From Candidatus Formimonas warabiya (GTDB lineage Bacteria; Bacillota; Dehalobacteriia; Dehalobacteriales; Dehalobacteriaceae): 64,000 bases of DNA. The position numbers and the translations under genes are program-made. A model generated the notes under the pieces. It had not been told where the DNA came from. It searched no databases and saw only the letters and a list, made by a program, of their open reading frames with translations. Positions 41,193-62,002 of this stretch are shown here, one piece after another (the stretch's first letter is position 1; every line of letters starts with the position of its first letter). The stretch covers positions 62,001 through 126,000 of the forward strand of contig NZ_CP017634.1 in the NCBI RefSeq assembly GCF_002777255.1. Reading direction: 5' to 3'.

Positions 41193-42482
41193 ATGCACAT
41201 AGAAATTCCATATGGTAAAGGTAAAATACCCGTTGAAATTCCCGAAAGGAATCTTATGCTTATTGCGACACCGGCAGGGAAATCTTCCCATGTGATCAAT
41301 GAAGATGAAGAAATACGGAAAGCTTTATCTAATCCAATAGGAACGGATACGTTAAAGAATCTCGCTGCAAAACTCAGCCCGGAGGATAAGGTGGTAATCT
41401 TAACAAGTGATTATACAAGGCCTACTCCTTCAGAAAGGATTATTCCTTATCTTTTAACTGAAATGAAGGAGGGGGGGGTTAGTTCTAAGCAAGTCACCGT
41501 AGTTTTTGCTTCAGGGCTGCATCGACCTATGACAAAAGAGGAGATGGATAAAGCACTGGGAGGACTAAGGAACGAAGTAAACGCGATATCTCATGATGCC
41601 TATCAACATGAATGTGTTCCCATAGGGATATCGAAAAATAATACTCCGATAGAGATAAACCGGGTCGTATTTGAAGCAAAATTAAAAATTTCCATAAGTA
41701 CCATAGAGCCTCACCATGCAGCCGGTTGGTCGGGCGGGGGGAAAAATGTGATGCCTGGGATTTCAAGTAGCAAATCAATTTATGCGCACCATAAACAAAT
41801 GCTTAGCCCGGGTGTTGCCATAGCAGTATTTGACGGGAATCCCTTTCGCGAAGATATTGAGGATATTGCATGTAAAGCGGGAATTGATTTTATCTGTAAT
41901 GTGATTCTCACAGAAGATAAAAAGATTTCTCAGGCGTTTTGCGGTCACGTGGTAAAAGCGCATCGTGCAGGAGCAAAGGTTTGCGAGAAATGCTTATCAA
42001 TAGAGGTGCCGGAATTGCCGGACATCGTGATCGCTACGCCCGGGGGTGCGCCCAGGGATAATAACCTTTGGCAGACAGAGGGTAAAACCTTAACAAGAAT
42101 TAAAGACATAATACGGCCAGGGGGTATCATCATACTGGTTTCCGAGTGTTCAGAGGGAGTCGGCCAAAAGGAGTTTCAAAAGGATATCGAGACCCAACTA
42201 TCGACAGGTGATTTACAAAAAGTCATTGATACAATTGCGGAAATGCCTTTTACTGTACAGACAAATAAAACAGCGAGAATAGCTAAATTACTGCAAAACC
42301 AAGAGATATATTTTGTGACTTCGGAAACGATGCAGAAAGTTTTTACAAATCCGCCTTTTCGCATGTTTTCTTCTTTGCAGGAAGCTTTCGATGCGGCAGT
42401 TAAAAGTATGGGAGAAACGGCCAAGGTATTGGTAGTGCCTGAGGCGCCTGGCATTGTTTTGAAGCTGCCCAGTTTAAAATAA
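41193..42482 (+). CDS. LarA family nickel-dependent 2-hydroxyacid racemase
   Basis: The 429-aa LarA homologue carries a nickel-pincer cofactor on a lysine and racemises or epimerises 2-hydroxy acids by hydride transfer. All key residues align with lactate racemase: His110 (GLHRPMT), His174/175 and Lys184 (PHHAAGWSGGGKN), His199/200 (YAHHK). TRPTPS near residue 75 is also typical. The ATG at 41193 is chosen because AAGGAG lies nine bases upstream; an ATG at 41184 would abut that site. Lying between the two lyase subunits, it probably supplies the enantiomer that the lyase uses. The larB/C/E cofactor genes are not in the window. Confidence 0.85.
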   Translation: MHIEIPYGKGKIPVEIPERNLMLIATPAGKSSHVINEDEEIRKALSNPIGTDTLKNLAAKLSPEDKVVILTSDYTRPTPSERIIPYLLTEMKEGGVSSKQVTVVFASGLHRPMTKEEMDKALGGLRNEVNAISHDAYQHECVPIGISKNNTPIEINRVVFEAKLKISISTIEPHHAAGWSGGGKNVMPGISSSKSIYAHHKQMLSPGVAIAVFDGNPFREDIEDIACKAGIDFICNVILTEDKKISQAFCGHVVKAHRAGAKVCEKCLSIEVPELPDIVIATPGGAPRDNNLWQTEGKTLTRIKDIIRPGGIIILVSECSEGVGQKEFQKDIETQLSTGDLQKVIDTIAEMPFTVQTNKTARIAKLLQNQEIYFVTSETMQKVFTNPPFRMFSSLQEAFDAAVKSMGETAKVLVVPEAPGIVLKLPSLK

Positions 42483-42502
42483 TGTTAAAGGGGAGTGAGT
42501 TT

Positions 42503-42793
42503 ATGATGGATAGCATGAAAAGGTTAGTCTCGTTATCTGCAGAAGACAATGCCGCTACGGCACTTTCTGATATTTCCCCGGGAGACGAATGCTGCCTGGA
42601 AGTTGCAGGTAATAAATATAAATTTAATGCCGAAGAAGGGATACCCTTTGGTCATAAAGTAGCATTAATTGATTTTCAACCGGGGGATCAAGTAATAAAG
42701 TATGGCGAAATAATTGGCAGAGCTACTAAAACAATAAAAAAAGGCAGTCATCTTCATATTCATAATGTCGTAAGCGACCGTGTCGTTAAATAA
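42503..42793 (+). CDS. UxaA/SuyA-like small SAF-domain subunit
   Basis: The 96-aa protein has the SAF domain of the UxaA N-terminal/SuyA family: AEEGIPFGHKVALIDFQPGDQVIKYGEIIGRAT, ending HLHIHNV, the conserved histidine pair. In classical UxaA this domain is fused to the large part; here it is separate, as in SuyAB. The ATG at 42503 follows AAGGGGAGTGAGTTT; an ATG at 42482 overlapping the racemase stop is possible but has no ribosome site of its own. Confidence 0.8.
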   Translation: MMDSMKRLVSLSAEDNAATALSDISPGDECCLEVAGNKYKFNAEEGIPFGHKVALIDFQPGDQVIKYGEIIGRATKTIKKGSHLHIHNVVSDRVVK

Positions 42794-47793: not shown

Positions 47794-48516
47794 ATGCTAA
47801 TTAAGCGAAATAAGCTATACGAGGAAGTAGTAGAGAAAATATTAGAGATGATAAAGCAAAAGGAAATTGAAGAAGGCGAAAAATTTCCAACCGAAAAGGA
47901 ATTATCGGCTATGTTTGGTGTCAGCAGAATGGCCATAAGAGAAGCACTTTCCGCACTGCAGGCTTCCGGTGTTGTTGAAGTTAAACATGGTTCCGGGACG
48001 TATTTAAAAAATATTAATGATGACGTAATTATTAAACCTATTGCACGGGAATTGATTGCTCAAAAAGACAATTTATTAGATCTATTTGAGCTGCGGAGAG
48101 GTATTGAAACGGAAGCTGCAAGTTTGGCTGCTGTTAGAGCTTCTGATGAACAAATTAGCAAACTTAAAGAGGTACTGGCGCAAACAAGAAAAGCCCTGTC
48201 TGAAGGAAAGATGTTGGTTTCTGAGGACTTTGAATTCCATTTTGCGATTGTAGAGGCGACCAATAATAATACTTTCATCAAGGTCTATAACACGATTGCC
48301 AATAGCTTTTATGAGGGGCTTTCTTCTACTCATGAGATACTACAACAACGGTTAGGGCCGAGAGTGGTTGTATTAAGCGAACATGAAGAGATACTTAAAT
48401 ATATTGAAAAGAAAGAGCCTGAGTTGGCTAGAAGGGAAACTAGAAAGCATTTGGATAATGCATATGCCAGATTGGTTCAAGAATTGGAATGGGTTAATAG
48501 TAGAGTGAGGTGTTAG
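47794..48516 (+). CDS. GntR family regulator, FadR/FCD subfamily
   Basis: The 240-aa regulator has an N-terminal winged helix (about 8-75, FPTEKELSAMFGVSRMAIREAL) and a C-terminal FCD ligand-binding domain (about 90-230, with ELRRGIETEAASLAA and metal-binding histidines such as FEFHFAIV). FCD regulators commonly bind organic acids. ATG 47794 follows ACAGGAGGAAAAGTGC. It overlaps the LarA-like gene start region and probably controls the neighbouring operon. Confidence 0.88.
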   Translation: MLIKRNKLYEEVVEKILEMIKQKEIEEGEKFPTEKELSAMFGVSRMAIREALSALQASGVVEVKHGSGTYLKNINDDVIIKPIARELIAQKDNLLDLFELRRGIETEAASLAAVRASDEQISKLKEVLAQTRKALSEGKMLVSEDFEFHFAIVEATNNNTFIKVYNTIANSFYEGLSSTHEILQQRLGPRVVVLSEHEEILKYIEKKEPELARRETRKHLDNAYARLVQELEWVNSRVRC

Positions 48517-48518
48517 AG

Positions 48519-49772
48519 GTGGAGTTACCAAGGATTGTTAAAATCCGCCAGCAGCTGCCTAGACCCAAATTAGCTGACCCCATTGGTAAAGTCACTGAAG
48601 AGCTTAACAAATTAAATATACGGAACAAGGTAAATGACGGGAAATTAATTGCCATAACCGGCGGCAGCAGAGGTATTGCCAATATAAACTTAATATACAA
48701 GGAATTAGCGGATTATGTCAGAAAAGAGGGTGGCCGGCCCATCATTATTTCTGCTATGGGCAGTCATGGGGGAGGGACAACGGCAGGTCAAAGGGAAGTA
48801 TTGGCACATTTGGGCGTTACTGAGGACCTAATAGGATGCCCCGTTATGGCATCATGCGACATTGAACTGATCGGTAATACATCAACCCACCATCTTCCCG
48901 TGTATTGTGCCAAAGAGGCTATTACGGCCGATGGCTTAATCGTTGTGAACAGAGTAAAAGCGCACACTGCCTTTAGAGCTCCCAGAGAATCCGGTCTGCT
49001 GAAAATGCTGGCCATAGGGCTTGGCAGGACTCCAGGGGCAGATGCTATTCATTCCCGTGGTACAGAAGAAATCGGCAGTATTATTCTAGAACTTTCCAGA
49101 ATAGTGAGGGAAAAAGTAAATGTGATCGCAGGGTTGGCGATTGTAGAGAATGGATATGAAGAAACAGCAGTTATTGAAGGCCTTTATCCGGCTCAATTTG
49201 AAGCGGCAGAAGAAAGATTGCTCAAATATGCCAAAGAGTTAATGCCGAGAATTCCTTTTGATACTTTAGATCTTTTACTGATTGATGAAATGGGAAAAAA
49301 TTATAGTGGTACTGGCGTGGACACCAATGTAATTGGAAGATGGAGAATTCATGATGTAGAGGAGCCGAAGAAACCTAAAATTAAAAGAATTGGTATCTTG
49401 GATTTATCTCATGCTTCCCACGGAAATGCGAATGGGATAGGTCTGGCCGATTTTACTACGCAACGATTAGTGCATAAAATTGATTACCAAGCTACTTATT
49501 TGAATTGCTTAACGACTGGTTTTGTTTTAAGAGGGATGATTCCTGTAACTCTGGACTCAGATAAGAAATTGATAGAATCGGCATTAAGAACTTTACACCT
49601 TGCTAAACCCGAACGGGCAAAAACTTGCTGGATTAAAAATACCTTATTTTTGGATGAAATGTACTGTTCTGAAAGCTTACTGCCAGAAATAATAGGAAAT
49701 GCAAAATTAGAAGTGGTTGGAGATATACAGAATCCAAGATTTGATTGGGCAGATAATCTGATCAGGAGTTAA
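48519..49772 (+). CDS. LarA-like (DUF2088-type) protein A
   Basis: The 417-aa protein aligns over its N-terminal half with LarA. ITGGSRGI, AMGSHGGGTTAGQ with His83, KAHTAFRAPRESGLLK with His149 and Lys162, and DAIHSRG with His178 supply the same His/Lys set that holds the nickel-pincer cofactor in lactate racemase. The C-terminal half differs. The GTG at 48519 is chosen because GAGGTG lies six bases upstream and because it lines up residue for residue with the ATG of its paralogue at 60746. Possible racemase or epimerase of a 2-hydroxy acid; activity unproven. Confidence 0.75.
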   Translation: MELPRIVKIRQQLPRPKLADPIGKVTEELNKLNIRNKVNDGKLIAITGGSRGIANINLIYKELADYVRKEGGRPIIISAMGSHGGGTTAGQREVLAHLGVTEDLIGCPVMASCDIELIGNTSTHHLPVYCAKEAITADGLIVVNRVKAHTAFRAPRESGLLKMLAIGLGRTPGADAIHSRGTEEIGSIILELSRIVREKVNVIAGLAIVENGYEETAVIEGLYPAQFEAAEERLLKYAKELMPRIPFDTLDLLLIDEMGKNYSGTGVDTNVIGRWRIHDVEEPKKPKIKRIGILDLSHASHGNANGIGLADFTTQRLVHKIDYQATYLNCLTTGFVLRGMIPVTLDSDKKLIESALRTLHLAKPERAKTCWIKNTLFLDEMYCSESLLPEIIGNAKLEVVGDIQNPRFDWADNLIRS

Positions 49773-49802
49773 TGAGGCCCATGGAATATAATCAAGCAAA
49801 TT

Positions 49803-49843
49803 CCCGGTACGATGCAGTGAATTGTACCGGGTTTTGATTTTTC
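49803..49843 (+). terminator. rho-independent terminator after LarA-like protein A
   Basis: CCCGGTAC / GTACCGGG stem around a 13-base loop, followed by TTTTGATTTTT. Confidence 0.8.
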
Positions 49844-49919
49844 CCTGCACCTTGATAAAAAGGGTTACTTATTTTTCGACAAAAAAATAAATTGTTCCAT
49901 TTTGAAAAGAGGATAATTC

Positions 49920-49954
49920 TATATTATATAGAATATATTATATAGAATATAGAA
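49920..49954. repeat. 14-bp tandem repeats, candidate GntR operator
   Basis: TATATTATATAGAA occurs twice without a gap (49920-49933, 49934-49947), followed by a half copy TATAGAA. It lies 44 bases before the second GntR gene, in an A/T-rich stretch that also contains -10-like sequences. Confidence 0.5.
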
Positions 49955-49997
49955 TCATTCGGTAAAGTCAAAATAAAATAGATAAGTAGGCGAAAAT

Positions 49998-50720
49998 ATG
50001 GAACTAAAAAAAATAAACCCCCCACAAATAGGTAGGAAAACACTATCAGATCAAGTTTATGAGTTTTTAAAGGGAGCGATCATTTTCCAAGAGATACCAC
50101 AGACAAAATTAGGTGTTAAATTAAATGAAACTGAATTGGCCTCTCTTTTAGGAGTTAGCCAAACCCCGATACGAGAAGCGTTAAACATGCTTCGGAAGGA
50201 AGGCCTTGTTTTAGGCAACTCGTATCAAGGTTCAACAGTTATTGATTTTTCCATAGAGGATATTGATAACATTTTTGAAATGCGGGAAATTTTAGAGATC
50301 ACTGTGATCAGACATGCGTATCGTAAGTTTACCAAAGAAGACTATGAAAAACTTGAAGAAATTTTAAATGAATACGAAAATGTTTATTCTGATTTAGATT
50401 TTAGAGAAATATCAGAAGTAAATAACCGATTTCATAATTATTTAGTTGATAAATCAGGTAATAAATGGCTAAAAAAATTTTTGGATAGTATTAATGATTA
50501 CTTAATTATGGTCAGGTCACCCATCATGAAAACAAGGAAAGAAAACAAGGGACTAGATAATAGAGAAGCCATCATTGAACATAAGGAAATATTAAATGCT
50601 TTAAAAAATGGTGACTTAAATCAAGCTGAGATGGCCATGAAAAAGCATATTAATCGGGTAAAAAAGGAAATATGCGTATATCTTGAAAAACGTGATGCAG
50701 ACATGCCATTGAAGGAATAA
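49998..50720 (+). CDS. GntR family regulator, FCD subfamily (second)
   Basis: The 240-aa regulator has a GntR winged helix (about 15-80, LNETELASLLGVSQTPIREALNMLR) and an FCD domain (95-225) with EMREILEITVIRHA and FHNYLVDKSGN. ATG 49998 follows AGTAGGCGAAAAT, a weak ribosome site. It precedes the ComA-HPrK-pyruvate kinase cassette by 49 bases on the same strand and probably controls it. It differs clearly from the first GntR protein. Confidence 0.88.
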   Translation: MELKKINPPQIGRKTLSDQVYEFLKGAIIFQEIPQTKLGVKLNETELASLLGVSQTPIREALNMLRKEGLVLGNSYQGSTVIDFSIEDIDNIFEMREILEITVIRHAYRKFTKEDYEKLEEILNEYENVYSDLDFREISEVNNRFHNYLVDKSGNKWLKKFLDSINDYLIMVRSPIMKTRKENKGLDNREAIIEHKEILNALKNGDLNQAEMAMKKHINRVKKEICVYLEKRDADMPLKE

Positions 50721-50769
50721 TCTGGGCCGAATCCCAGTTAATTTAATAACTAAATTGGAGGAGATATTT

Positions 50770-51585
50770 ATGTGGAACGGAGTAGGTAAAATGGCTTGGG
50801 AAGGTATTATTACAGATCCTTATACAGGCAGAAATGCTGAAAAGCCCAGACGGCAAGGAAAGACAATCATATCTGACCTAGGATATGGGTTGGGGGAGAT
50901 AAAGGACTTTTTGGAAAATTGCGGGCAGTACATAGACCGGGCTAAATTGGCTTTCGGCACTACCGTTATTTACTCTAAAGATTACTTAAGAGAAAAAATT
51001 AAGTTATACAAAGAATTCGGTATCGACGTTAATCCAGGTGGGACTTGTGCTGAGATTGCTATTTACCAGGGAGTATTTGAGCCGTTTTTAGAAAAAGCAA
51101 AGGCAATGGGATTTACAACCATTGAAATATCTGACGGAACAATAAAAATGGATGATAAGGTTAGGACAAGTGTAATAACGAAGGCTTTAGAAGCTGGGTT
51201 TGAGGTTATTTCAGAAGTTGGCAAGAAACATATATCAGAACAGTTGGAGATACAAGAAGCGATTAGACAAATCAAGAGGGATTTAGAGTTGGGTGTTTCT
51301 TCGGTAACAGTGGAGTCAAGAGGATCCGCAAAAGGGATCGGGATTTATGATAAAGATGGAAAAGTGAAGGCTGATGATGTAGAAGCGATGTTAGCTGCAG
51401 GTATTGATCCCCAAAATCTCACCTGGGAAGCACCAACAAAAGATGGACAAGAGTTTTTTATAAGTTATTTTGGCAACAATGTGAATTTGGCTAATGTTAG
51501 GTATTTTGAAGTGATTGCTTTAGAGGGATTGCGCCGTGGCTTGAGAGGGGATACCTTGCATAAAATAGTTAATAACTTGCTGTAA
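50770..51585 (+). CDS. phosphosulfolactate synthase (ComA) family protein
   Basis: The 271-aa TIM-barrel protein matches the ComA family: KTIISDLGYGLGEIKDFLENCGQYIDRAKLAFG; GIDVNPGGTCAEIAIYQG; GFTTIEISDGTI; and VISEVGKKH (quoted in pieces: DLGYGLGE, KLAFGT, NPGGT, EISDGTI, SEVGKKH). ComA adds sulfite to PEP to make phosphosulfolactate in coenzyme M synthesis. Here no other coenzyme M gene is present, but a P-loop kinase and a pyruvate kinase follow, so a reverse, degradative role releasing PEP and sulfite is possible. ATG 50770 follows TTGGAGGAGATATTT. Confidence 0.8.
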   Translation: MWNGVGKMAWEGIITDPYTGRNAEKPRRQGKTIISDLGYGLGEIKDFLENCGQYIDRAKLAFGTTVIYSKDYLREKIKLYKEFGIDVNPGGTCAEIAIYQGVFEPFLEKAKAMGFTTIEISDGTIKMDDKVRTSVITKALEAGFEVISEVGKKHISEQLEIQEAIRQIKRDLELGVSSVTVESRGSAKGIGIYDKDGKVKADDVEAMLAAGIDPQNLTWEAPTKDGQEFFISYFGNNVNLANVRYFEVIALEGLRRGLRGDTLHKIVNNLL

Positions 51586-51614
51586 TATAAACAAATTAAA
51601 AGGGGTATAGAAAT

Positions 51615-52652
51615 ATGTCTTATTTTACAGATAATTCAAATCATAAAACTCTTTACGCGCAGACGAGGAAATTTGTTGAGGCCAATATTGCTGTTCATTC
51701 AAACTGTACTGAATTGATTTATCCTGATATGTATATGGATCCTGAAGTGCAGAAACGGCAGCCTGAAAAGTGGCGCAGCGTTAATGGCTTAGGAGTAAGT
51801 CAAATAGTTGACCCTGCCGGGAAACCGGATGCGGTATTATATGTACTAAATGAAAGCGGCCCTAACTCTGACCTTCGTTTATTATACCATGAAAACGAAT
51901 ATGTCATTGCCGGTCCCTTGCTTGAGTTAGAAAAGAATCCGCCGGATCGCCGCTATACTGTTTATGGTTGTGGCGGCTTACTGACTAAAATTATGGTGAC
52001 CACCCTGGAGGATCATCATGGCATTTGTAGCTTGCATGCTACAAGCATGTATTCTGAAAAAGACAATCATCTGCTTTTAGCGATCGGCGGGCCGGGCGCA
52101 GGTAAGACGATCCTATTATTGGAAGCCTGCCTGCGCAAAGGTTATAAGGTCTTAACGACAGAATATACGCATTTTAAAACTGCGGGGGATAGCATTATTT
52201 TCTATAAAGGATCTCTTTTTGACAATGTGAGAGTGGGAAATTTAATATATGATTTTCCCGAGTATGAAGCAATCTGGGGCAAAGAAATTATTACGGATAC
52301 AAAAAATGTATGGGATACAAAAGTAGCTTTAGATTTTCAACCATTACAGGTGGAAGAAAATAAAATTATTAATCCTGAAGTTACAATTGTTTTTCCTAAA
52401 ATTGAAAGTCAAAGGACAAGTGCTGATATCCAAACCATATCCTCCTATCAAACCCTATTCCAATTTTTTCTCAATGCAGGTGAACAAATAAATCGGCCTA
52501 GACTACTCTATGGGAGACTGCCTTTTTCATCCTTTGACAGTAAGAATAGAGGTATGCGGCGCCTCAAGCTGGTGCAAGATTTTCTTGATCAAGTCAATTT
52601 ACGCGCGGTAAAAACAATTTTTGCCGGTGTGAAGAACTCCTGGCCGCTGTAA
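51615..52652 (+). CDS. HPr-kinase-like P-loop protein, proposed small-molecule kinase
   Basis: The 345-aa protein has an unrecognised N-terminal part (1-130) and a core like the HPr kinase/phosphorylase C-terminal domain. HGICSLHATS (135-144) is followed by Walker A AIGGPGAGKT (156-165) and ACLRKGYKVLTTEYTHF, where HPrK has RGHRLVADD. The Mg-binding DD is therefore changed, and the domain lacks the HPrK N-terminal half. Serine-type hydroxyl phosphorylation is the family chemistry, so a hydroxy acid could be the substrate; this is inference. ATG follows AAAAGGGGTATAGAAAT, 29 bases after the ComA gene. Confidence 0.6.
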   Translation: MSYFTDNSNHKTLYAQTRKFVEANIAVHSNCTELIYPDMYMDPEVQKRQPEKWRSVNGLGVSQIVDPAGKPDAVLYVLNESGPNSDLRLLYHENEYVIAGPLLELEKNPPDRRYTVYGCGGLLTKIMVTTLEDHHGICSLHATSMYSEKDNHLLLAIGGPGAGKTILLLEACLRKGYKVLTTEYTHFKTAGDSIIFYKGSLFDNVRVGNLIYDFPEYEAIWGKEIITDTKNVWDTKVALDFQPLQVEENKIINPEVTIVFPKIESQRTSADIQTISSYQTLFQFFLNAGEQINRPRLLYGRLPFSSFDSKNRGMRRLKLVQDFLDQVNLRAVKTIFAGVKNSWPL

Positions 52653-52688
52653 ACGAAAACACTTAATCTCTTAATTAAAGGAGGAAAA

Positions 52689-54029
52689 ATGAGACATACA
52701 AAAATACTTGCGACGATAGGGCCGGCATCATTTTCCGAAAAAGTATTAACTGAATTAATATCAACGGGGATCAGTGGCTGTCGAATTAATTTTTCTCATA
52801 CCAGTTTTGAAAAAGCGGAAGAATTAATTTGGAAAATCCGCAAAGTTAGTGAAAAGCTTGCTAAACCTATTTGTATCCGGCAGGATCTGCAGGGGCCTAA
52901 AATAAGAATTGGGGAATTAGCGCAAGAGGAAGTGGTTTTACGGAGAGGCCAAGCCTTCAAACTTGCTCTGGGAAATATCATCGGTGATCAGGAATGTGCC
53001 GGTGTAGCTCAAAAAGAGTTTATGGAGGCTTTGCAGCCGGGAGCTACAGTGGTCATAGGCGATAACGAATTAAAGCTTGAGGTTATACATAAGGAAAGAG
53101 AAAGTGTTGATTGTAAAGTCATTATTGGCGGGGCGCTTAAACCCCAAAAGGGTGTAAGTGCGCCGGGTACTTTCATTGATTTTAAGGGTTTAACTAAAAA
53201 GGATTTAAGTGACTTGGATTTTGGGATCAGGCAAAAAGTTGACTGTGTTTCCATGTCTTTTGTACAAAGTGCTGATGACATTTATCGCCTAAAAGAAATT
53301 ATTCGCGAGCAAAGTTCCCAGGTACCTGTTATTGCGAAAATTGAACAATACAATTCATTAAAAAATCTGGATGAAATTATAAAAGCCTCCGACGGCATCA
53401 GTATTGCGCGAGGAGATCTGGCTGTCGAGCGCCCCCTGGAGGAACTAGGGCTGATTCAAAAAGAAATCATTAGGCGATGTAACATCGCCGGTAAATTTGT
53501 GATGGCTGGTTCCGGAATATTACAAAATCTTAGAAAAAATTTATGGCCTACGAGAGCAGAAGTGAATGATGTTACGGCACTTATATTTGAAGGAATCGAC
53601 GCGATCTCGTTTTCCGATGAGACGGCAATTGGTGATTACCCGGTGGAAAGCGTTCGTACCTTGGCAACTATTATCGAAAGTGTAGAAAAGGTGATCCTCA
53701 CTCATCATACGGCCTCAGATAGTTTTTATCGAAACATAGATGCAAATTTTACATATGTTCAGGGGAAAGAGAGTCTGGTTTTGTGTACCGATACTTTGGA
53801 GCCGGTGGTGAAATTAGCAAAAATGCATTACACAGCTCCTCTTTTAGTAGGCACCAAATCCTCAAATGAGGCAAATTATCTTTCGAATTATTGGGGCGTG
53901 TATCCTATTTACTGCCCACCGGAATTAATGGGGCAGGAGATGTTTGACTATGTGGTCAATAAAGCAATTGCCCTGGGAATTATTGATAATAAAAACCCGA
54001 TCATTAATTTGAATAATTATTGGGGTTGA
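52689..54029 (+). CDS. divergent pyruvate kinase homologue
   Basis: The 446-aa protein has the pyruvate kinase core: LATIGPAS, RINFSH (32-37), DLQGPKIR, the B domain, VIAKIEQ with catalytic Lys217 and Glu219, ARGDLAVE with Asp243, PTRAEVND and the C domain. The usual ATQMLESM block reads AGSGILQNL (273-281), so the catalytic Thr aligns with Ser275, and the MLSGETA block reads SFSDETA. It may still make pyruvate and ATP from PEP, or act on a related phospho compound. Start follows TTAAAGGAGGAAAA. Third gene of the ComA-kinase cassette. Confidence 0.8.
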   Translation: MRHTKILATIGPASFSEKVLTELISTGISGCRINFSHTSFEKAEELIWKIRKVSEKLAKPICIRQDLQGPKIRIGELAQEEVVLRRGQAFKLALGNIIGDQECAGVAQKEFMEALQPGATVVIGDNELKLEVIHKERESVDCKVIIGGALKPQKGVSAPGTFIDFKGLTKKDLSDLDFGIRQKVDCVSMSFVQSADDIYRLKEIIREQSSQVPVIAKIEQYNSLKNLDEIIKASDGISIARGDLAVERPLEELGLIQKEIIRRCNIAGKFVMAGSGILQNLRKNLWPTRAEVNDVTALIFEGIDAISFSDETAIGDYPVESVRTLATIIESVEKVILTHHTASDSFYRNIDANFTYVQGKESLVLCTDTLEPVVKLAKMHYTAPLLVGTKSSNEANYLSNYWGVYPIYCPPELMGQEMFDYVVNKAIALGIIDNKNPIINLNNYWG

Positions 54030-54104
54030 TATGATGGACTAATGCTCTTTTGGCAGCGGATGACATCGGCTGGAAAAATCAGAATTTATCATAACATAGA
54101 AAAT

Positions 54105-54136
54105 TCCGACAAACCGGAGGGTTCCGAATATATGGA
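54105..54136 (+). promoter_or_regulatory. two tandem 14-bp inverted repeats, proposed activator sites
   Basis: TCCGACAAACCGGA (54105-54118, perfect TCCG-N6-CGGA) and TCCGAATATATGGA (54123-54136), 18 bp start to start, exactly as at 38483-38514. They lie 88 bp upstream of a sigma54 promoter, a normal enhancer position. Confidence 0.75.
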
Positions 54137-54223
54137 ATCGCCGGCAAATATTTTTAGTAAGGTATGTGCGGAAATATGTTGGTATTACTGGAATAGAGGC
54201 TTCAGGGCCAGCGGATTGTTATC

Positions 54224-54239
54224 TGGCACGCAAATTGCA
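54224..54239 (+). promoter_or_regulatory. consensus sigma54 (-24/-12) promoter for the TTT transporters
   Basis: TGGCACGCAAATTGCA matches the TGGCACG-N4-TTGCW consensus with the correct ten bases between GG and GC. Predicted RNA start near 54250. Confidence 0.85.
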
Positions 54240-54484
54240 TAGTATCATGAGTAACCAGTCTAACCTGCTTAAATGAAACGGGTTAGGCAAAACAAATTAT
54301 AAAATTTTAAAATGGTTAAGGAGATGGTGCATGATTTTATAAAGAGATAAATTGATTTGATTCAGGCGGTTTAGTAGAAAAGACTGTATACTGTATTTCT
54401 CTATCAAAAAAAACGTGCAAAGGGAGAATATGTAAAATGTTGCTTTTATGCTCGATGGATTAATAATAATTGGGGGGTAAAGTA

Positions 54485-55528
54485 ATGTTCAGAAATAAAA
54501 GGAATTTCCTGTTTAATTTTATAGGGTTACTGACATTAATTGCTTTGATGGTATTGGTTGCCGGATGTGGCTCGTCTGAGAAATTGGAAAATGAAGCAGA
54601 GCAGCAGCCGGAAGCTCAAGCGCCAGCTCCCGAGTTCCCGACTAAACCAATTACATTAGTTGTCTCTTGGGGGGCTGGCGGCGGTAACGATATTGTAGCC
54701 AGGTCTATTGCCGCTATAGCAGAGAAAGACTTAGGGCAACCGGTTAATGTCGTTAATGTTCCAGGTGCCGGTGCTGAGATTGGCTTCACGCAAATTGCCA
54801 AAGCCGAGCCGGATGGTTACACAATCGGCATGATTGCCACCCCAACTATTGGGCTGAATACACTAGACCGAGAAACAACTTATAAACTGGACGACTTTAA
54901 AATATTATTGGGACTGGCTTCTGATCCCCGCGTTATTGCGGTAGCAGCGGATAGTAAATTTCAAACGATTGAGGACCTGATCAAATATGGCAAGGATAAC
55001 CCGGGAAAATTGCGCATAGGTCACGGCGGAGTTGGTACCCATGCCCAATATGCCGCCCTTGATTTCGGTGAGAAAAATGGCTTAGATATTATTGATGTTC
55101 CTTTTGAAGGCGCAGCAAGTGCGATAAGTGCCGTACTGGGAAAACATGTAGAAGCTTCTTGTCCTGCGGTTGGTGAAGTTTTATCTAATGTAAAGTCAGG
55201 TCAGATGAAAGTCCTCGTCGTTCTGGAAAATTCACGTTCTCCGGAGCTTCCTGATGTACCGTGTGCCAAAGACCTAGGCTGGGATATGGCCCATACTTCT
55301 GTCCGGGGTTTGATGGGCCCCAAAGATATGCCTCAAGACGTCGCGGATATTCTGACAAATGCATTTAAGAAGGCAATGGAAACAGAAGACTTTCAGAAAC
55401 AGATGAAGGATGCGGGTGTAACGGTTCAGTATATGACTGGTGATGATTTAACTAAATTAGTACAGGATCATGTTGTGATCTATAAACCTATTGTTGAAGC
55501 TGTAAAGGCAAAACAGGAGAAGAAATAG
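54485..55528 (+). CDS. TTT transporter substrate-binding lipoprotein (TctC family), first
   Basis: The 347-aa extracytoplasmic receptor has a lipoprotein signal with lipobox LVAGC at residues 22-26, a Glu/Pro-rich linker, then the TctC fold. The fold shows FPTKPITLVVSWGAGGGNDIVAR, NVPGAGAEIGF, AEPDGYTIG and VPFEGAASAISAVLG (each a family block). TctC proteins bind carboxylates and hand them to the TctAB membrane pair; sulfolactate is one known type of ligand for this family. ATG 54485 follows TTGGGGGGTAAAGTA. First gene of the sigma54-driven operon. Confidence 0.9.
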   Translation: MFRNKRNFLFNFIGLLTLIALMVLVAGCGSSEKLENEAEQQPEAQAPAPEFPTKPITLVVSWGAGGGNDIVARSIAAIAEKDLGQPVNVVNVPGAGAEIGFTQIAKAEPDGYTIGMIATPTIGLNTLDRETTYKLDDFKILLGLASDPRVIAVAADSKFQTIEDLIKYGKDNPGKLRIGHGGVGTHAQYAALDFGEKNGLDIIDVPFEGAASAISAVLGKHVEASCPAVGEVLSNVKSGQMKVLVVLENSRSPELPDVPCAKDLGWDMAHTSVRGLMGPKDMPQDVADILTNAFKKAMETEDFQKQMKDAGVTVQYMTGDDLTKLVQDHVVIYKPIVEAVKAKQEKK

Positions 55529-55564
55529 TTTAATCTTAAGTCTTTGAAAGTGGGTTTATAAACG

Positions 55565-56029
55565 ATGCATATGAACAAAGATATCGTATCATCAATAGCA
55601 CTTTTGGCACTCGGCGCAATTTATAGTGTGTATTCCCTGCAATATAAAATTGGGGATATTATCTATGCGCCGGGTTCCGGTGCCTTCCCCCTTCTTATTG
55701 GGATTTTATTAATGCTATTGTCCGCGGTTTTGTTGTTTTTGAGTGTTAAAAAACAAAGAGCCATAAAAGAAAGGGCTGCTAAAGAGGCGCACAAATTTCA
55801 TCTAAACAAAGCCTTTTGGCTCACCTGCATCGGCTTATTAATTTATACTTTCGTGATGCCTTTAATTGGATTTTTTCTTGCAACAGTTATATTGAATTTT
55901 TATTTAATTCGCGTATTAGGCGGCAAAGGATGGTTGGTCCCTTTGGTTATTTCATTAGCCCTTGGAGGATTACTGTATTGGCTCTTTGGCATGATGCTTA
56001 AAATTCCGGTCCCAACTTTTGGAATCTAA
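55565..56029 (+). CDS. TTT transporter small membrane subunit (TctB family), first
   Basis: The 154-aa protein has four membrane segments (about 8-26, 38-60, 83-105 and 115-150) and the TctB start with APGSGAFPLLIGILL. It pairs with the following TctA subunit. The ribosome site is weak (AAAGTGGG), and ATG 55571 is an alternative start. Confidence 0.88.
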   Translation: MHMNKDIVSSIALLALGAIYSVYSLQYKIGDIIYAPGSGAFPLLIGILLMLLSAVLLFLSVKKQRAIKERAAKEAHKFHLNKAFWLTCIGLLIYTFVMPLIGFFLATVILNFYLIRVLGGKGWLVPLVISLALGGLLYWLFGMMLKIPVPTFGI

Positions 56030-56043
56030 GGGGAGGTGAAATA

Positions 56044-57531
56044 ATGCTTGAATCTTTATGGGCGGGGTTTGTTAATGTGATGCATCTTACCCCACTTTTG
56101 GCCTGCTTCGCAGGAGTTCTTATGGGCACACTGGTTGGTATATTACCTGGTATAGGCCCAAGTGGCACGATGGCTTTGATGCTTCCTTTTACCTTTTCCC
56201 TGGATCCGACCTCAGCTTTGATCATGCTGGCAGGTATCTATTATGGCGCCCAATACGGCGGCTCAACGACAAGTATTTTGTTGAATTTGCCTGGTGAGGC
56301 GTCTAGCGTGATGACGGCAATAGAAGGTTACCAGATGGCGAAGAAAGGCCGTGGCGGGGCCGCTTTAACCATCGCTGCCGTAGGTTCGTTTATAGCCGGT
56401 ACGGTATCGATTTTTGGCTTGATTTTTCTCGGCCCGCCTTTAGCCAAGGCCGCATTAAGTTTTGGCCCTCCTGAAATTTTTAGTATCATGGTCCTTGGTT
56501 TTGTGATTCTTTCTACGATCAGCGGGGGGTCTACACTTAAATCGGGCTTAATGATCCTGGTAGGGTTGATGGTAGGAACCGTTGGATTTGATAATATTTC
56601 AGGGGTTGTTCGGTTTACCTTCGGGTCAACAACTGCCATGGATGGCATCGAATTTATTCCTGTTGTGATGGGTATATTCGGCATTGCCGAGATATTATGG
56701 TCATTGGTAGGTAACGAGGAAGAGATTAAGCCTGCCTCAATCCGCCTTAGGGATTTATATCCCAATCGAGAAGAAATTTCGCGTAGTGTTGCCCCTGTAT
56801 TCCGAGGTAGTATTTTAGGCTTTTTAATTGGATTAATCCCGGGACCATCAGCAGTTATATCGACGATGGTTTCATACGCTGCGGAAAAACGATTATCTAA
56901 GCATGGTAATTTTGGACAAGGTGCCATTGAAGGTATAGCGGGACCTGAATCAGCCAACAATGCCACAAGTACCGGAGCACTCATTCCTCTCTTGGTTTTG
57001 GGCATACCTTTTGCACCACCCACCGCCATTCTATTAAGCGGCCTGATGTTGCAAGGCATTATTCCGGGACCATTGCTATTTACCCAGCATGCGGATATTT
57101 TTTGGGGCTTGGTAGCAAGCATGTATATTGGCAATGTCTTATTGTTGATTTTTAACTTACCATTAGTGGGTGTATTTGCCAGTCTCTTAAGAATTCGCCC
57201 TGCTTACCTGAATACACTGATTATCTCCCTTTGCTTAATAGGGGCCTTTAGTCTTTCGAATAGAATGTTTGAGATGTGGATAGTTGTTGTGTTTGGTATT
57301 ATTGGTTTCCTAATGCAGTATTTTGGCTATAAAGGGGCACCATTGGTGTTGGGAATTGTTCTGGGGCCCATGCTGGAGACAAATTTTCGCAGATCACTAA
57401 TTATGTTGGCAAATCCGGCGGCATTTTTAGAAAGGCCGATTACAGTAACTATTTTGCTGATCGCGACACTGATTATCATACTTCCTTTTGTTTTGGAGCG
57501 GATCAGAAAAACGGGAGAAAAAAGAGCTTAA
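56044..57531 (+). CDS. TTT transporter large membrane subunit (TctA family), first
   Basis: The 495-aa protein has about 12 membrane segments and two inverted TctA repeats: GTLVGILPGIGPSGTMALMLP in the first and GFLIGLIPGPSAVISTM in the second. GAQYGGSTTSILLNLPGE is a further family signature. Forms the channel part of the carboxylate importer with TctB. ATG follows AAGGGGAGGTGAAATA. Confidence 0.93.
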   Translation: MLESLWAGFVNVMHLTPLLACFAGVLMGTLVGILPGIGPSGTMALMLPFTFSLDPTSALIMLAGIYYGAQYGGSTTSILLNLPGEASSVMTAIEGYQMAKKGRGGAALTIAAVGSFIAGTVSIFGLIFLGPPLAKAALSFGPPEIFSIMVLGFVILSTISGGSTLKSGLMILVGLMVGTVGFDNISGVVRFTFGSTTAMDGIEFIPVVMGIFGIAEILWSLVGNEEEIKPASIRLRDLYPNREEISRSVAPVFRGSILGFLIGLIPGPSAVISTMVSYAAEKRLSKHGNFGQGAIEGIAGPESANNATSTGALIPLLVLGIPFAPPTAILLSGLMLQGIIPGPLLFTQHADIFWGLVASMYIGNVLLLIFNLPLVGVFASLLRIRPAYLNTLIISLCLIGAFSLSNRMFEMWIVVVFGIIGFLMQYFGYKGAPLVLGIVLGPMLETNFRRSLIMLANPAAFLERPITVTILLIATLIIILPFVLERIRKTGEKRA

Positions 57532-57551
57532 TAGCAGAGGGAGGGCTATAT

Positions 57552-58040
57552 ATGAATAAAGTTGTGGACGGACTGTTGTTATGTCTAGGTGCTTACTTTT
57601 TCTGGAACTCTAACGCCTTTGATATTAATAACGTTACAGGGGATGTAGGCCCTGCCTTCTTCCCTAAGTTAATGGCTGTATGTCTTCTGATACTGGTAGT
57701 AAGTGATCTTTATTTAAATATTCGTAAAGATCGCAAGATGAGGAAAGTAGAAAAACCCCAAAATAAGGACATAAACTTACCTAGTTTTTTACCAAAGGCA
57801 AAAAAGGTATATGCTTCATTAGGGATACCGAATGTTACTCTAATTATGATTGCCTTGACCATTGTCTATTTATTGTTATTACCCCTGATGGGCTTTGCCA
57901 TTAGTACAGTAATATATACAATAGCTATGATGCTTATTTATGGAGTTCATAGTAAAAAGGTTTTATTCTGGGGAGGTTTTTTTAGCATTATAGTTATCTA
58001 TTTAATATTCAGCAAGTTATTGTTGGTACCTCTGCCATAA
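57552..58040 (+). CDS. TTT transporter small membrane subunit (TctB family), second
   Basis: The 162-aa protein has membrane segments near 5-20, 35-55, 90-112 and 118-160, with VGPAFFPKLMAVCLL as the TctB-type motif. It differs clearly from the first TctB, so this is a separate system and not a recent tandem copy. ATG follows AGAGGGAGGGCTATAT. Confidence 0.87.
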   Translation: MNKVVDGLLLCLGAYFFWNSNAFDINNVTGDVGPAFFPKLMAVCLLILVVSDLYLNIRKDRKMRKVEKPQNKDINLPSFLPKAKKVYASLGIPNVTLIMIALTIVYLLLLPLMGFAISTVIYTIAMMLIYGVHSKKVLFWGGFFSIIVIYLIFSKLLLVPLP

Positions 58041-58061
58041 AGAGATTAGGAGGTGGACAGT

Positions 58062-59552
58062 TTGTTGGAAAACTTATTGACGGGGTTAAGCTTAGCCATG
58101 CAGTGGGAACAGCTGCTTGCGATAGTAGTAGGCGCAATAGCGGGATATTTTGTAGGTATTGTACCAGGTTTGGGGTCGGCAACAGGAGTCGCTATTATAG
58201 TCCCGTTTACCTTTGGATTGGATCCTCTTGTGAGCCTGGCTATGTTAACCGCTTTATACGGTGCAGCTGAATACGGAGGGTCAGTAACAGCGATTTTACT
58301 TAATATCCCCGGTGAAGCGTCAGCCGCTGCAACTTGCTTTGATGGATACGCTTTATCTGAAAAAGGATTCCCCGGTAAAGCCCTGGGAATATCAATAACT
58401 GCATCGGGATTTGCAGGTGTTATCGGCACAATAGGCCTGGTTGCTTTGTCCGCGCCCCTGGCTAAATTTGCCTTAGCTTTTGACTCTGCCGAATATTTCA
58501 TGCTTGCTCTATTTGGGATTACCGTAGTAGGCGCACTTTCCGGCGAAAATCTATTGAAGGGTTTTATCTCTGTATTTTTTGGGCTGCTTTTAACAAGTGT
58601 AGGTATTGATCAAATTACGGGTCAGATCCGTTATGCTTCTATGCCGGAAATATTTGATGGGATCCCTTTTATTGTTGCATTAATAGGTTTATTTGGCATA
58701 AGCGAGATTCTCATTAGTTTAGAAGAAAAGCAAGAGAAAGGAGGACTGCGCACTGTAGGGCAACTTCCAAGTCTCAAGGAAACTATTCATTGCCTGCCGG
58801 CTATGACGAGAGGAAGCATAATTGGTTTCTTATTGGGCATATTTCCAGGCGCCGGTAAGGCGGTGGCCTCTTTCATTGCATATAACGAGGAAAAAAGGGC
58901 CTCTCGTTATCCTGAAAAATTCGGTACCGGGGTTCTTGAAGGAGTTGCCGCGCCGGAAGCAGCCAATAACTCCGTTGTAGGCGGTGCCTTTGTTCCCCTT
59001 TTAAGCCTGGGTATTCCTGGCTCGGGTACAGCGGCCGTTATTCTTGCCGCGTTTTTAATTCATGGATTGCAGCCGGGTCCTTCATTATTTACGAAGCATC
59101 CGGATATTGTGTATGGCCTTTTTGCCTGTTTGTTAATCGGAAACATTGTTATGGTTATGATGGGCTTGGGCTTAGCAGGCCAGTGGGGAAAGCTTACTTT
59201 GATACCGAAAAATATATTACTTCCCATTGTGATGGTAATCTGTGTTATCGGCGCCTATACTGTGACCAATAATATGGTGGCTATTTGGATTGCCCTTATT
59301 TTTGGTATCATTGGTTATTTTTTCCGCAGAGTGGATATACCTGTAGCACCTATCGTATTGGCCCTGGTTTTAGGGTCCATGATAGAAAGCTCTTTCAGGC
59401 GTGCTCTAGTATCATCTGTGGGGGATTACAGCATATTTTTTACCCGGCCCATAAGTCTTGTCCTTTTCTTACTAACAGTGCTATCAATAGTTTCTACATT
59501 CTTACGCTTACGTAAACAAAGAAGTCGAGAAAAAGATGGAGGTGAGTCCTAG
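58062..59552 (+). CDS. TTT transporter large membrane subunit (TctA family), second
   Basis: The 496-aa TctA has AGYFVGIVPGLGSATGVAIIVPF, GAAEYGGSVTAILLNIPGE and GFLLGIFPGAGKAVASFIAY repeats (quoted as family blocks) and a dozen membrane segments. The TTG at 58062 is preferred because AGGAGG ends eight bases upstream; the next TTG is possible, and a GTG at 58053 lies inside the ribosome site. Confidence 0.92.
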   Translation: MLENLLTGLSLAMQWEQLLAIVVGAIAGYFVGIVPGLGSATGVAIIVPFTFGLDPLVSLAMLTALYGAAEYGGSVTAILLNIPGEASAAATCFDGYALSEKGFPGKALGISITASGFAGVIGTIGLVALSAPLAKFALAFDSAEYFMLALFGITVVGALSGENLLKGFISVFFGLLLTSVGIDQITGQIRYASMPEIFDGIPFIVALIGLFGISEILISLEEKQEKGGLRTVGQLPSLKETIHCLPAMTRGSIIGFLLGIFPGAGKAVASFIAYNEEKRASRYPEKFGTGVLEGVAAPEAANNSVVGGAFVPLLSLGIPGSGTAAVILAAFLIHGLQPGPSLFTKHPDIVYGLFACLLIGNIVMVMMGLGLAGQWGKLTLIPKNILLPIVMVICVIGAYTVTNNMVAIWIALIFGIIGYFFRRVDIPVAPIVLALVLGSMIESSFRRALVSSVGDYSIFFTRPISLVLFLLTVLSIVSTFLRLRKQRSREKDGGES

Positions 59553-59605
59553 AGATTTTAATGTGTAGACTATGGTGATGAAGAATAAAAGGGAGGTAAA
59601 GAGGT

Positions 59606-60598
59606 ATGCGTAAGTTAAGTATGGTTGGATTAACGATTTTGATGGTTTTCGCCTTAGTTCTGACGGCGGCTTGTTCAAGTGGGACACAAGAAGGAAACGA
59701 CACCAGTCAACCGGCAGAGCCGGAGAAAATTTCCTATCCCGAGAAGCCCATTGATTTTATTGTGCCTTTTGCAGCCGGGGGAGGCACTGATTTAAATGCC
59801 CGTGTCATTGAAAAACTTGCAGAGAAATATCTGGGTCAACCTGTGGTAATTGTAAACAAGGAGGGAGCAGGGGGGCAAGTAGGTTACGAGCTAATCGCTC
59901 AGGCGAAGCCGGATGGATATACCATAGGTTATCTAAATTTACCCGGTGCCATCCAAATTGCTGCTGACCGGGAAACGAAATATGATCCCTTAAATAGCTA
60001 TGAACCCATCATCATGCAAGTATTAGAGCCCAAATTGGTAGCAGTACGTAAAGAGGCACCTTGGCAAACAATGCAGGAATACATTGATTATGCAAAAGCC
60101 AATCCTGGCAAATCAAAAGCGGCTAATAATGGGCCCGGTAGTGCTAATGAGCTTGCCATGAAAATGTTTGCTGATAAGGCTCAAATTGAGGTAACCCATG
60201 TTCCTTATGATGGGGCAGGAAAAATGATGGCTGCTTTACTAGGAGGCCATGTGGATATTGCACCTTTGGGGGTTTCTGAATTTAATACCAATGCGGAACA
60301 ATTAAGGGTGTTGGCAGTCTTTAGTAAGGAAAGAATTAAAGAATTAAAAGATGCCCCAACTGCTAAAGAGCAAGGGCTGGATTTAGACCTTTCAGCGCGC
60401 AGAGGCATAGTAGCACCAAAAGGGACACCCCAAGAAATAGTAAATTTCTTACATGATAATCTGAAAAAAATGTGGGAAGATCCGGAGTATATTCAAATGA
60501 TGGAACAGATTAACGCCATCCCTCTTTATATGAATGGGGAAGATTTCACGAAACGTATTCAAGAGGAACAAAAAATGATTGATGAATTAGCCAAGTAA
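59606..60598 (+). CDS. TTT transporter substrate-binding lipoprotein (TctC family), second
   Basis: The 330-aa receptor has lipobox LTAAC at residues 19-23, then IDFIVPFAAGGGTDLNARVIE, KEGAGGQVGYELI and AKPDGYTIGY (family blocks). It completes a second TctABC set and closes a C-B-A-B-A-C gene order. ATG follows AAAGGGAGGTAAAGAGGT. Weak similarity to the first receptor suggests a different or broader ligand. Confidence 0.9.
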   Translation: MRKLSMVGLTILMVFALVLTAACSSGTQEGNDTSQPAEPEKISYPEKPIDFIVPFAAGGGTDLNARVIEKLAEKYLGQPVVIVNKEGAGGQVGYELIAQAKPDGYTIGYLNLPGAIQIAADRETKYDPLNSYEPIIMQVLEPKLVAVRKEAPWQTMQEYIDYAKANPGKSKAANNGPGSANELAMKMFADKAQIEVTHVPYDGAGKMMAALLGGHVDIAPLGVSEFNTNAEQLRVLAVFSKERIKELKDAPTAKEQGLDLDLSARRGIVAPKGTPQEIVNFLHDNLKKMWEDPEYIQMMEQINAIPLYMNGEDFTKRIQEEQKMIDELAK

Positions 60599-60679
60599 AG
60601 AAGATTCCATTGTTAAAAGGGCTCCATTTTATCCGTTCGAAATATACATTTATTTATGTGAAAGTAGATATCTTTATGT

Positions 60680-60719
60680 AATAAAGACTGTCAATGAGTC
60701 CTTGTTGACAGTCTTTATT
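60680..60719. terminator. long stem-loop after the transporter operon
   Basis: AATAAAGACTGTCAA / TTGACAGTCTTTATT, a 15-bp perfect stem with a ten-base loop. The T-run lies in the arm, as in the hairpin at 39738. Confidence 0.7.
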
Positions 60720-60745
60720 AAACCGATACGTGTGGAGGTTTAATT

Positions 60746-62002
60746 ATGAAATTTCCTTTTTTTTATGCTGTACAGAAATTATTTCGACAGAAACAAATTT
60801 CAGACGTAGTTGGAGAATTAGATCAGGCGCTTCAACAAGTGGAATTTAAAAGTATGTTTACCCCCGGAGAAAGAATCGCAATTACTGTCGGGAGTAGAGG
60901 GATTGATAACCTAAGTTTAATCATAAATACTTTGGTAAGCAGATTAAAATTGATCGGAGCACTACCTTTTATCGTACCCGCGATGGGAAGCCATGGAGGG
61001 GCTACCCCTGAGGGACAATTAGAAGTGTTAGAAAGTTTAGGTATTTCCCCGGAGACCGTAGGTGCTCCCATTATTTCAGATATGGCAGTTGTGGATCTCG
61101 GTAAAACAGATAATGGTGCTATCGTTTACATGGATAAGAATGCTTTTGAAGCGGATGGCATTGTAGTAGTTAACAGGATCAAGCCCCATACAAGATTTAA
61201 AGCTGAGAATGAAAGCGGCTTAATGAAAATGATTGCGGTAGGCCTGGGCAAACATAAGGGATGCATTGAAATGCATAACTATGGATTATACCCTACTATT
61301 GTCAAAGCTGCGCGGGTGGCATTAGCAAAGGCACCTATCAGATTAGGGATAGGAATCGTAGAAAATGCATACGACCGCACGGCGAGAATTGTAGCTATTG
61401 CTAACCAAAACTTTGAATCTACAGATGCATGTCTCCTGAAAAAGGCCAAAAGTTTAATGCCATCTTTACCTGTGGATGATATTGATCTGCTTGTTGTGAA
61501 AGAAATGGGCAAAAATATCAGTGGAACCGGTATGGATGTGAATATTCTGGGAAGAGTTACCAGCCCTTTATTAAATGATGTTGATACGCCAAGAATTAAG
61601 AGAATTGTAGCATTGGATTTAACGGATGCCTCTCATGGAAATGCACTTGGAATGGGGCTGGCCGATATAGTTCCGCGCAGATTAGCAAATAAGATAAATT
61701 TCAATGCAACCTATGCAAATGTTGTATCGGCAGGGGTGCTCGATAGGGGTAAATTGCCTGTAGTATTAGAAAGCGATAAGGATGCTATTGAAGTAGCCTT
61801 AAAATCAATAGAGAGGCTAGATTATCAAAAGGCACGGATCGTTATTATCCGCAGTACACTAGAGCTGGGTAATCTAATTGTATCTGAGGAAATATATAGA
61901 GATATTACTAACTTATCTGATGTTTGTTTAAGTGAAAATAGATTTGATTTGGCATTCGATGCAGATGGAAATTTAAGTAATAAATGTTTTCTAGCGCCAT
62001 GA
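60746..62002 (+). CDS. LarA-like (DUF2088-type) protein B
   Basis: The 418-aa paralogue of the protein at 48519 is co-linear from the first residue. It has TVGSRGI, AMGSHGGATPEGQ with His83, KPHTRFKAENESGLMK with His148 and Lys161, and IEMHNYG with His177. It keeps the residues expected to bind a nickel-pincer cofactor and probably racemises a 2-hydroxy acid. It sits between the transporter operon and the sigma54 activator gene. ATG follows TGTGGAGGTTTAATT. Confidence 0.75.
   Translation: MKFPFFYAVQKLFRQKQISDVVGELDQALQQVEFKSMFTPGERIAITVGSRGIDNLSLIINTLVSRLKLIGALPFIVPAMGSHGGATPEGQLEVLESLGISPETVGAPIISDMAVVDLGKTDNGAIVYMDKNAFEADGIVVVNRIKPHTRFKAENESGLMKMIAVGLGKHKGCIEMHNYGLYPTIVKAARVALAKAPIRLGIGIVENAYDRTARIVAIANQNFESTDACLLKKAKSLMPSLPVDDIDLLVVKEMGKNISGTGMDVNILGRVTSPLLNDVDTPRIKRIVALDLTDASHGNALGMGLADIVPRRLANKINFNATYANVVSAGVLDRGKLPVVLESDKDAIEVALKSIERLDYQKARIVIIRSTLELGNLIVSEEIYRDITNLSDVCLSENRFDLAFDADGNLSNKCFLAP

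Follow-up and report, generated by a model that had tools for sequence, protein, structure and literature searches.

Sulfolactate is a component of some spores, and the lyase SuyAB, which cleaves it, belongs to the altronate dehydratase family. In the accessible part of a 2026 review, sulfolactate is also given as a product of sulfosugar breakdown, and SuyAB, the enzyme named for its cleavage, is an Fe(II)-containing lyase acting without phosphorylation, phosphosulfolactate being absent from the main text (PMC12890257). The product of the phosphosulfolactate synthase ComA is the (R) form according to the accessible text of another source (PMC5695019), and a third, equally in its accessible part, describes a sulfonate respiration in which isethionate or taurine is processed by the glycyl radical enzyme IslA and then by Dsr (PMC8473560). 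Here, a group of genes is described from a 64,000-nucleotide stretch of the Candidatus Formimonas warabiya genome (contig NZ_CP017634.1, positions 62,001 to 126,000; this whole stretch is called the window below). They encode a ComA homologue, a P-loop kinase and a pyruvate kinase (PK), and probably degrade sulfolactate by way of phosphorylation, through the kinase, ComA working in reverse and then PK. Neither such a pathway nor a sulfolactate kinase was found among the open-access literature matches listed, as judged by titles and abstract openings, subscription journals being mostly outside this search.

The three open reading frames (ORFs) are all intact and lie on the + strand. The first (50770..51585) encodes a ComA homologue of the phosphosulfolactate synthase family, scoring 294.1 bits on TIGR03849 (cut-off 280) and 273.7 bits on Pfam PF02679; its start was set at the ATG at 50770, preceded by GGAGGAG, the listed ORF start at 50755 being an in-frame upstream TTG. 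It is followed, after 29 bases (51586-51614), by the P-loop gene (51615..52652), a putative sulfolactate 2-kinase of an unnamed family, with structure matches to ATP-type phosphoenolpyruvate carboxykinase (PEPCK), and, after a further 36 bases (52653-52688), by a predicted, divergent PK (52689..54029; TIGR01064, 386.8 bits, cut-off 306.4). A plausible ribosome site precedes each of the three genes, and a predicted GntR/FCD-family transcriptional regulator lies upstream on the same strand (49998..50720; Pfam FCD 89.7 bits, GntR 41.7 bits). An earlier note on this DNA had described three close-set genes behind their own GntR regulator and had named a ComA homologue and a PK-like protein: the layout was found as described, and both identities are borne out by NCBIfam scores above the cut-offs.

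Members of the kinase family were collected purely by sequence (145 proteins, E 1e-3, of which 120 were listed), and an alignment of 22 members was used to scan GTDB 220 species contigs, which yielded 27 loci, with gene starts taken at the first start codon. A ComA gene lies within five kb of the kinase in all 27. In 24 of them it directly follows the kinase on the same strand, at a gap of at most 406 bases and often with an overlap or a single base between; the interval holds a PK in L008 and L010, and a PK together with transporter genes in L009 (4.6 kb). Record titles assign the loci to Oscillospiraceae, Chloroflexota, Methylomirabilota, Thermodesulfobacteriota/Syntrophales, further deltaproteobacterial bins and a bin labelled Proteobacteria. 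Since loci found from the kinase alone all hold ComA, the association is more than chance, and the two proteins likely work together. Their pairwise distances are correlated (Mantel r 0.954; 27 loci, being 26 relatives and the window; none of 2000 permutations as high), shared host ancestry contributing to this value.

Two larger genome sets gave a similar picture. Among 395 genomes of the phylum of L018, 10 hold a strong kinase, at 11 loci, all with ComA adjacent; only one of these genomes (G300) was new. Among 201 Chloroflexota genomes, an archaeal-type ComA above the cut-off occurs in 7 (9 places) and a strong kinase in 6 (8 places), all six being among the seven and five of them already known from the 27-locus scan. 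Seen from the ComA side, among 30 Chloroflexota ComA loci a kinase lies within about 1.5 kb in 5 of the 7 above the cut-off, and in none of the 23 below it. Seen from the kinase side, ComA lies within the fetched 1.5 kb at five of the eight strong loci; the others are a contig end (G118, where kinase and ComA sit on different contigs, near contig ends), the copy of L010, with PK between, and a copy on contig C84 of G063. The seventh ComA genome, G260, is without the kinase, and its ComA adjoins an XcbC-like lyase that reaches 476.9 bits on the coenzyme M XcbC model (cut-off 575); coenzyme M synthesis by this bacterium is thereby suggested. By BLAST over loci L008-L075, an XcbC-like gene was found at this locus (L052) only. 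Weaker matches were not counted as kinases: in Chloroflexota a fragment of 36.9 bits, from a genome with strong copies, and a hit of 19.1 bits, and in the 395-genome set three hits of 19.7-22.3 bits. A search of 72,556 plasmid records at E 1e-5 gave no kinase match. Nor was the kinase found in any of the 60 searched relatives of the window genome, so its presence is patchy.

The ComA of the window is about 43% identical to that of M. jannaschii over the aligned part, and four of the five other linked ComAs scanned on TIGR03849 exceed the cut-off, that of L008 falling just under it (273.8). Phylogenetically, the 28 kinase-linked ComAs, that of the window among them, group with the G260 ComA on one branch (support 95/93; 54 ComA-family rows in all), with M. 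jannaschii ComA in the neighbouring group. Without G260, the linked ComAs were not recovered as a clade by any of 200 bootstrap trees, and long branches make it uncertain where inside the branch G260 and L011 belong. Near-copies and pieces below 200 residues were dropped, so that L022 is absent from both the tree and the Mantel test, and L049 was taken as kinase-linked although its kinase sits on another contig. At 70 columns the linked ComAs are at least 95% conserved, and 57 of these are identical in the M. jannaschii enzyme, including K137, which we take to be catalytic; of the other 13, 5 fall outside the M. jannaschii stretch used. In a distant Chloroflexota branch (L062-L074, 11 tree rows), glutamine replaces the K137-equivalent lysine, and therefore another chemistry is probable there.

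The P-loop protein, of 345 residues and with the motif GGPGAGKT, reaches the cut-off of no Pfam or NCBIfam family. Its nearest solved structures, among the best 50 matches listed, are ATP-PEPCKs, aligned over 283 of the 345 residues, and an invariant histidine (H141) aligns with a histidine that precedes the P-loop in each of two PEPCK chains, by weak profile matches (E 0.42 and 1.9); in ATP-PEPCK this histidine is presumably metal-binding. ATP-PEPCKs transfer phosphate to the C2 oxygen of a three-carbon acid, and GTP-type PEPCK structure entries with beta-sulfopyruvate or sulfoacetate exist, as judged by entry titles. The protein is thus predicted to have a PEPCK-like fold and is proposed to be a sulfolactate 2-kinase.

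As to the last step, a PK is present in 5 of the 27 loci (L008, L009, L010, L024 and L028) and PPDK, which also interconverts phosphoenolpyruvate (PEP) and pyruvate, in 7 others (L012, L014, L016, L018, L023, L025 and L034; the L018 protein scores 1357 bits on TIGR01828), which gives 12 loci with either. The PK of the window is about 55% identical to the kinase-adjacent PKs of L008 and L009 and 36.6% identical to the other PK of its genome. It keeps the core motifs AKIE and ARGDL, and KIE and ARGDL are also found in the PKs of L008, L009 and L010. Conserved co-occurrence, which the earlier note had put forward as a check, is strongly borne out for kinase and ComA (27/27; 11/11), and in part for PK.

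In the proposed route, the kinase would convert sulfolactate, in the (R) configuration produced by ComA, and ATP into 2-phosphosulfolactate, which ComA would split in reverse into PEP and sulfite. PK, or PPDK, would then convert PEP to pyruvate and regenerate the ATP, and the sulfite would pass to DsrAB where present, as here and in some relatives. The other enantiomer of sulfolactate would be converted by LarA-type racemases or D-2-hydroxyacid dehydrogenases.

The gene neighbourhoods favour a sulfonate over another hydroxy acid as the substrate. Profile scans covered about 19 of the 127 additional ORFs listed around the 27 loci, and more sulfonate genes may therefore have escaped notice; the counts of PPDK, LarA, dehydrogenases and transporters were obtained by BLAST to a few profile-named members, and are lower bounds, as contigs are often short. 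Genes for DsrAB lie at two loci, on the ComA strand: in L015 (dsrA/dsrB 579.5/525.3 bits) dsrA starts about 1.9 kb behind ComA, in the order GntR, kinase, ComA, NifU-like, NifS-like, dsrA, dsrB, CbiA/CobB-like, and a DsrK-like gene (351.5 bits, cut-off 400) lies beyond these. In L021 (577.7/533.7 bits) it starts about 6.2 kb behind, after kinase, ComA, fumarate reductase-like genes and a cytochrome b-like gene, and is followed by dsrB. At the genome level, 25 of the 27 loci were entered, since L021 and L029 share their assemblies with L011 and L010, and dsrA exceeds the cut-off in 12 of 26 kinase genomes, i.e. the window genome (dsrA 574.1 bits, dsrB 519.8 bits) and 11 of 25 others. A taurine/sulfonate-type ABC transporter is encoded immediately upstream of the kinase in L011 (TIGR01729, 189.5 bits, cut-off 304.25), and ComB-like genes are found in L008 and L009, the former with 137.3 bits on Pfam (cut-off 26.4), both under the NCBIfam cut-offs. 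Tripartite tricarboxylate transporter (Tct) genes also occur at several other kinase and ComA loci. LarA-type racemases are present in 9 of the 27 loci, D-2-hydroxyacid dehydrogenases in 13, and either in 19. These neighbours suit the proposal that SlcC/ComC racemises S to R sulfolactate before cleavage in a sulfolactate degrader, as found in the accessible part of its source (PMC12421959). A KorAB-type oxoacid:ferredoxin oxidoreductase is clearly present in 6 loci. A recurring block, made of a CoA transferase pair, a D-2-hydroxyacid dehydrogenase and PPDK, was observed upstream of kinase and ComA in L016, L018, L023, L025 and L034, joined by an aldehyde ferredoxin oxidoreductase in all of these except L034.

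Several observations weigh against a catabolic sulfolactate route. We know of no activity for this kinase family, and the ATQML motif, which presumably lies near the PK substrate, is changed in linked PKs (GSGIL in the window, L008 and L009; GGEVM in L010), being kept in the PKs of L024 and L028 and in the other PK of the window genome. Neither PK nor PPDK was seen in 15 of the 27 loci, many on short contigs, and one of three kinase copies of G063, on contig C84, lies 9 kb from ComA on the opposite strand. dsrA is missing or under the cut-off in 14 of 26 kinase genomes; all model matches of the L011 transporter are below their cut-offs, and the transporter encoded in the window belongs to the tricarboxylate type, which is not specific to sulfonates. 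A ComB-like phosphatase in L008 and L009 would undo the kinase step. The LarA of L017, the sole LarA of the 27 loci scanned by NCBIfam, passes the cut-off of the LarAH5 malate racemase (509.3 vs 462); sulfolactate is the sulfonate analogue of malate, yet malate chemistry fits as well. ComA is described, in the accessible text, in the synthetic direction (PMC5695019). For strain DCMF, should it be the host, the accessible text reports that both sulfite and sulfate had been supplied as acceptors, and that growth occurred with methanol, choline or glycine betaine, the species description adding dimethylglycine and sarcosine with H2 as substrates; it reports no growth with sulfite and leaves sulfonates unmentioned (PMC8163858), and therefore sulfite respiration in that strain is not favoured.

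As an alternative, ComA could fix sulfite onto PEP, the P-loop protein then stripping the phosphate, by a reverse kinase reaction or phosphorolysis, to yield sulfolactate as a solute, a sulfite sink or a cofactor precursor. This would agree with the description of ComA as a synthase, with the ComB-like genes of L008 and L009, and with the kinase-adjacent PPDK of 7 loci, which could supply PEP. A PK in the unit would, however, drain that PEP, dsrAB beside the kinase/ComA pair consumes sulfite, the presence of transport genes and of GntR regulators speaks for uptake and catabolism, and ComB alone would be enough for synthesis. A reverse kinase reaction starting from a low-energy phosphate ester is also unfavourable, and synthesis is considered unlikely.

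Degradation by the same chemistry may, with low probability, be directed at another 3-substituted lactate, such as glycerate, isoserine or thio-lactate, the C2-OH being phosphorylated and the ComA homologue forming PEP by elimination of some group other than sulfite. The conservation of ComA columns as in the archaeal enzyme argues against such a substrate, and the dsrAB genes of two loci and the taurine-type transporter indicate sulfite and sulfonate. Such a substrate would fit the D-2-hydroxyacid dehydrogenases of 13 loci, of which the two scanned (L008, L030) have models of phosphoglycerate dehydrogenase and glyoxylate reductase as their nearest ones, below the cut-off, as well as the tricarboxylate-type transporters, the malate racemase score of the L017 LarA and the LarA at 41184-42482 of the window, for which the nearest model is the LarAH6 malate racemase, below its cut-off. 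Malate itself was rejected as a substrate by a chemical argument, a carboxylate being no leaving group in this chemistry.

A regulatory role for the P-loop protein, as an HPr-kinase-type protein kinase modifying ComA or another enzyme of the unit, appears very improbable. The HprK and PEPCK folds are considered related, and trace matches to the HprK-related kinase A model (HprK_rel_A; 11.9 bits, cut-off 200) and to the FomB-kinase model (14.4 bits) were obtained; no HprK family was matched in Pfam at E 0.1, and no HprK entry is among the best 50 structure matches listed, an absence that is no proof by itself. The extent of the ATP-PEPCK alignments, together with an almost invariable linkage to, and co-variation with, a single metabolic enzyme, suits a catalytic partner, and a protein kinase was rejected as first choice because fold and linkage indicate metabolism. 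Where the earlier note had named an HPr-kinase-like core, a PEPCK-like fold is predicted, and no HprK model was matched above its cut-off; of its wider interpretation, the kinase/ComA pairing is strongly borne out and the conservation of PK in part, a sulfonate is favoured over another hydroxy acid, and the chemistry (substrate, enantiomer, direction of ComA) is inferred.

A reduced PEPCK supplying ComA with PEP from oxaloacetate, which the fold would allow, is hardly credible and was rejected, since the window genome already holds two full, ordinary ATP-PEPCKs (PF01293, 741 and 739 bits), the only genes there found with PF01293, a model which misses the P-loop protein (Pfam, E 0.1), the alignment to 1xkv_A starts at residue 84 of the latter, the first part of PEPCK having no counterpart, and the PK of the unit would undo the supply.

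Further features surround the three genes. Downstream, two tandem sets of Tct genes (TctC-TctB-TctA, then TctB-TctA-TctC; 54485..60598, + strand) form a candidate uptake system; the first two genes score 194.9 bits (TctC) and 73.1 bits (TctB) on Pfam, and the others were named by ORF order and by grouping the TctA and TctC copies with BLAST. Upstream, a candidate 2-hydroxyacid racemase of the LarA superfamily, a group 22 nickel-pincer isomerase (48510..49772, + strand; NF052515, 498.4 bits, cut-off 400), matches no solved structure by sequence at E 0.1; its membership in the unit is uncertain, as a terminator-like hairpin (49803-49831) lies between it and the GntR gene. A second isomerase of the same group is found on the other side of the unit (60746-62002, 502 bits). 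No Rfam match was obtained within 49700-61000, and promoter-like sites are roughly as common as in shuffled sequence (17 found, shuffle mean 16.4).

A second hydroxy-acid island is located at 38711-42793 of the window, with genes for a DHDPS-family protein, the large part of an altronate/galactarate dehydratase, a LarA and a 103-aa protein resembling a separate small dehydratase subunit, followed by KorABG and SucCD. Its split large and small dehydratase recalls the SuyAB layout. None of the three genes of the unit encodes a SuyB-type lyase of the altronate dehydratase family, and this island holds a putative relative of that family 9.6 kb upstream; its plasmid matches, among the 25 of 316 listed, are named only UxaA family hydrolase, altronate dehydratase or garD, or are nameless.

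The window genome, a single contig of 6,441,270 bases, carries five PF02679 genes, including the ComA of the window (at 0.113 Mb), one copy of the kinase and one further PK. Its sole PF04029 (ComB) match lies at 5.108 Mb, about 5.0 Mb from this ComA, in agreement with the earlier note, which had seen no coenzyme M or spore-sulfolactate gene nearby; with no partner gene near, a role in either synthesis was rejected. Three close copies of a divergent ComA homologue are found elsewhere within 11 kb (L035, 5251000-5270900; locus positions 6733-7617, 12748-13590 and 16177-17028), amid TctABC, AbrB-like, PrpF, MmgE/PrpD, isopropylmalate-dehydrogenase-like, aconitase-family and mandelate-racemase-like genes and without the kinase; the copy scanned scores 143 bits on TIGR03849, far under the cut-off. 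A NIR_SIR-domain match with an internal stop codon (L042, 4888413-4888820) is perhaps a decayed reductase gene.

Taken over all loci, we lean towards a phylum-spanning form of sulfonate catabolism, in which a new family of PEPCK-fold kinases and a reversed ComA would cleave the C-S bond to give PEP, and not pyruvate, together with sulfite, which in anaerobes would go to DsrAB; it would extend over Bacillota, Chloroflexota, Methylomirabilota and deltaproteobacterial lineages. If so, an enzyme of coenzyme M synthesis, ComA, serves as a desulfonating lyase, and an unnamed kinase family acquires a function, with an added source of respiratory sulfite and hence sulfide. Such a second sulfolactate route would also explain the presence of an archaeal-type ComA beside a kinase in scattered, mostly uncultured bacteria.

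Compared with known systems, the kinase has a P-loop and trace profile matches in common with HPr kinase/phosphorylase and FomB, and differs in having no family match near the cut-off, HPr not being among the genes of the unit. From ATP-dependent PEPCK it differs by a smaller size, the lack of a PF01293 match and the link to ComA, with no decarboxylation proposed. Sulfonate respiration through IslA shares the cleavage of an organosulfonate to sulfite, dsrA being above the cut-off in the window genome; the unit, however, has no glycyl radical enzyme, and a phosphorylated intermediate with a reverse Michael addition is proposed instead. The archaeal ComA/ComB pathway of coenzyme M synthesis and the bacterial Xcb route employ the same enzyme family and the same intermediate, phosphosulfolactate, and the ComA of the window passes the cut-off of the archaeal ComA equivalog. 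The direction proposed here is the opposite one, the kinase replacing the phosphatase (ComB) or the lyase (XcbC); neither of the latter was found next to the ComA of the window, where the scanned genes belong to other families. With the SuyAB route, the cassette would share the net reaction, from sulfolactate to pyruvate and sulfite, with racemase-like enzymes at hand, and it would reach these products by a kinase, a reversed ComA and PK or PPDK, with PEP on the way.

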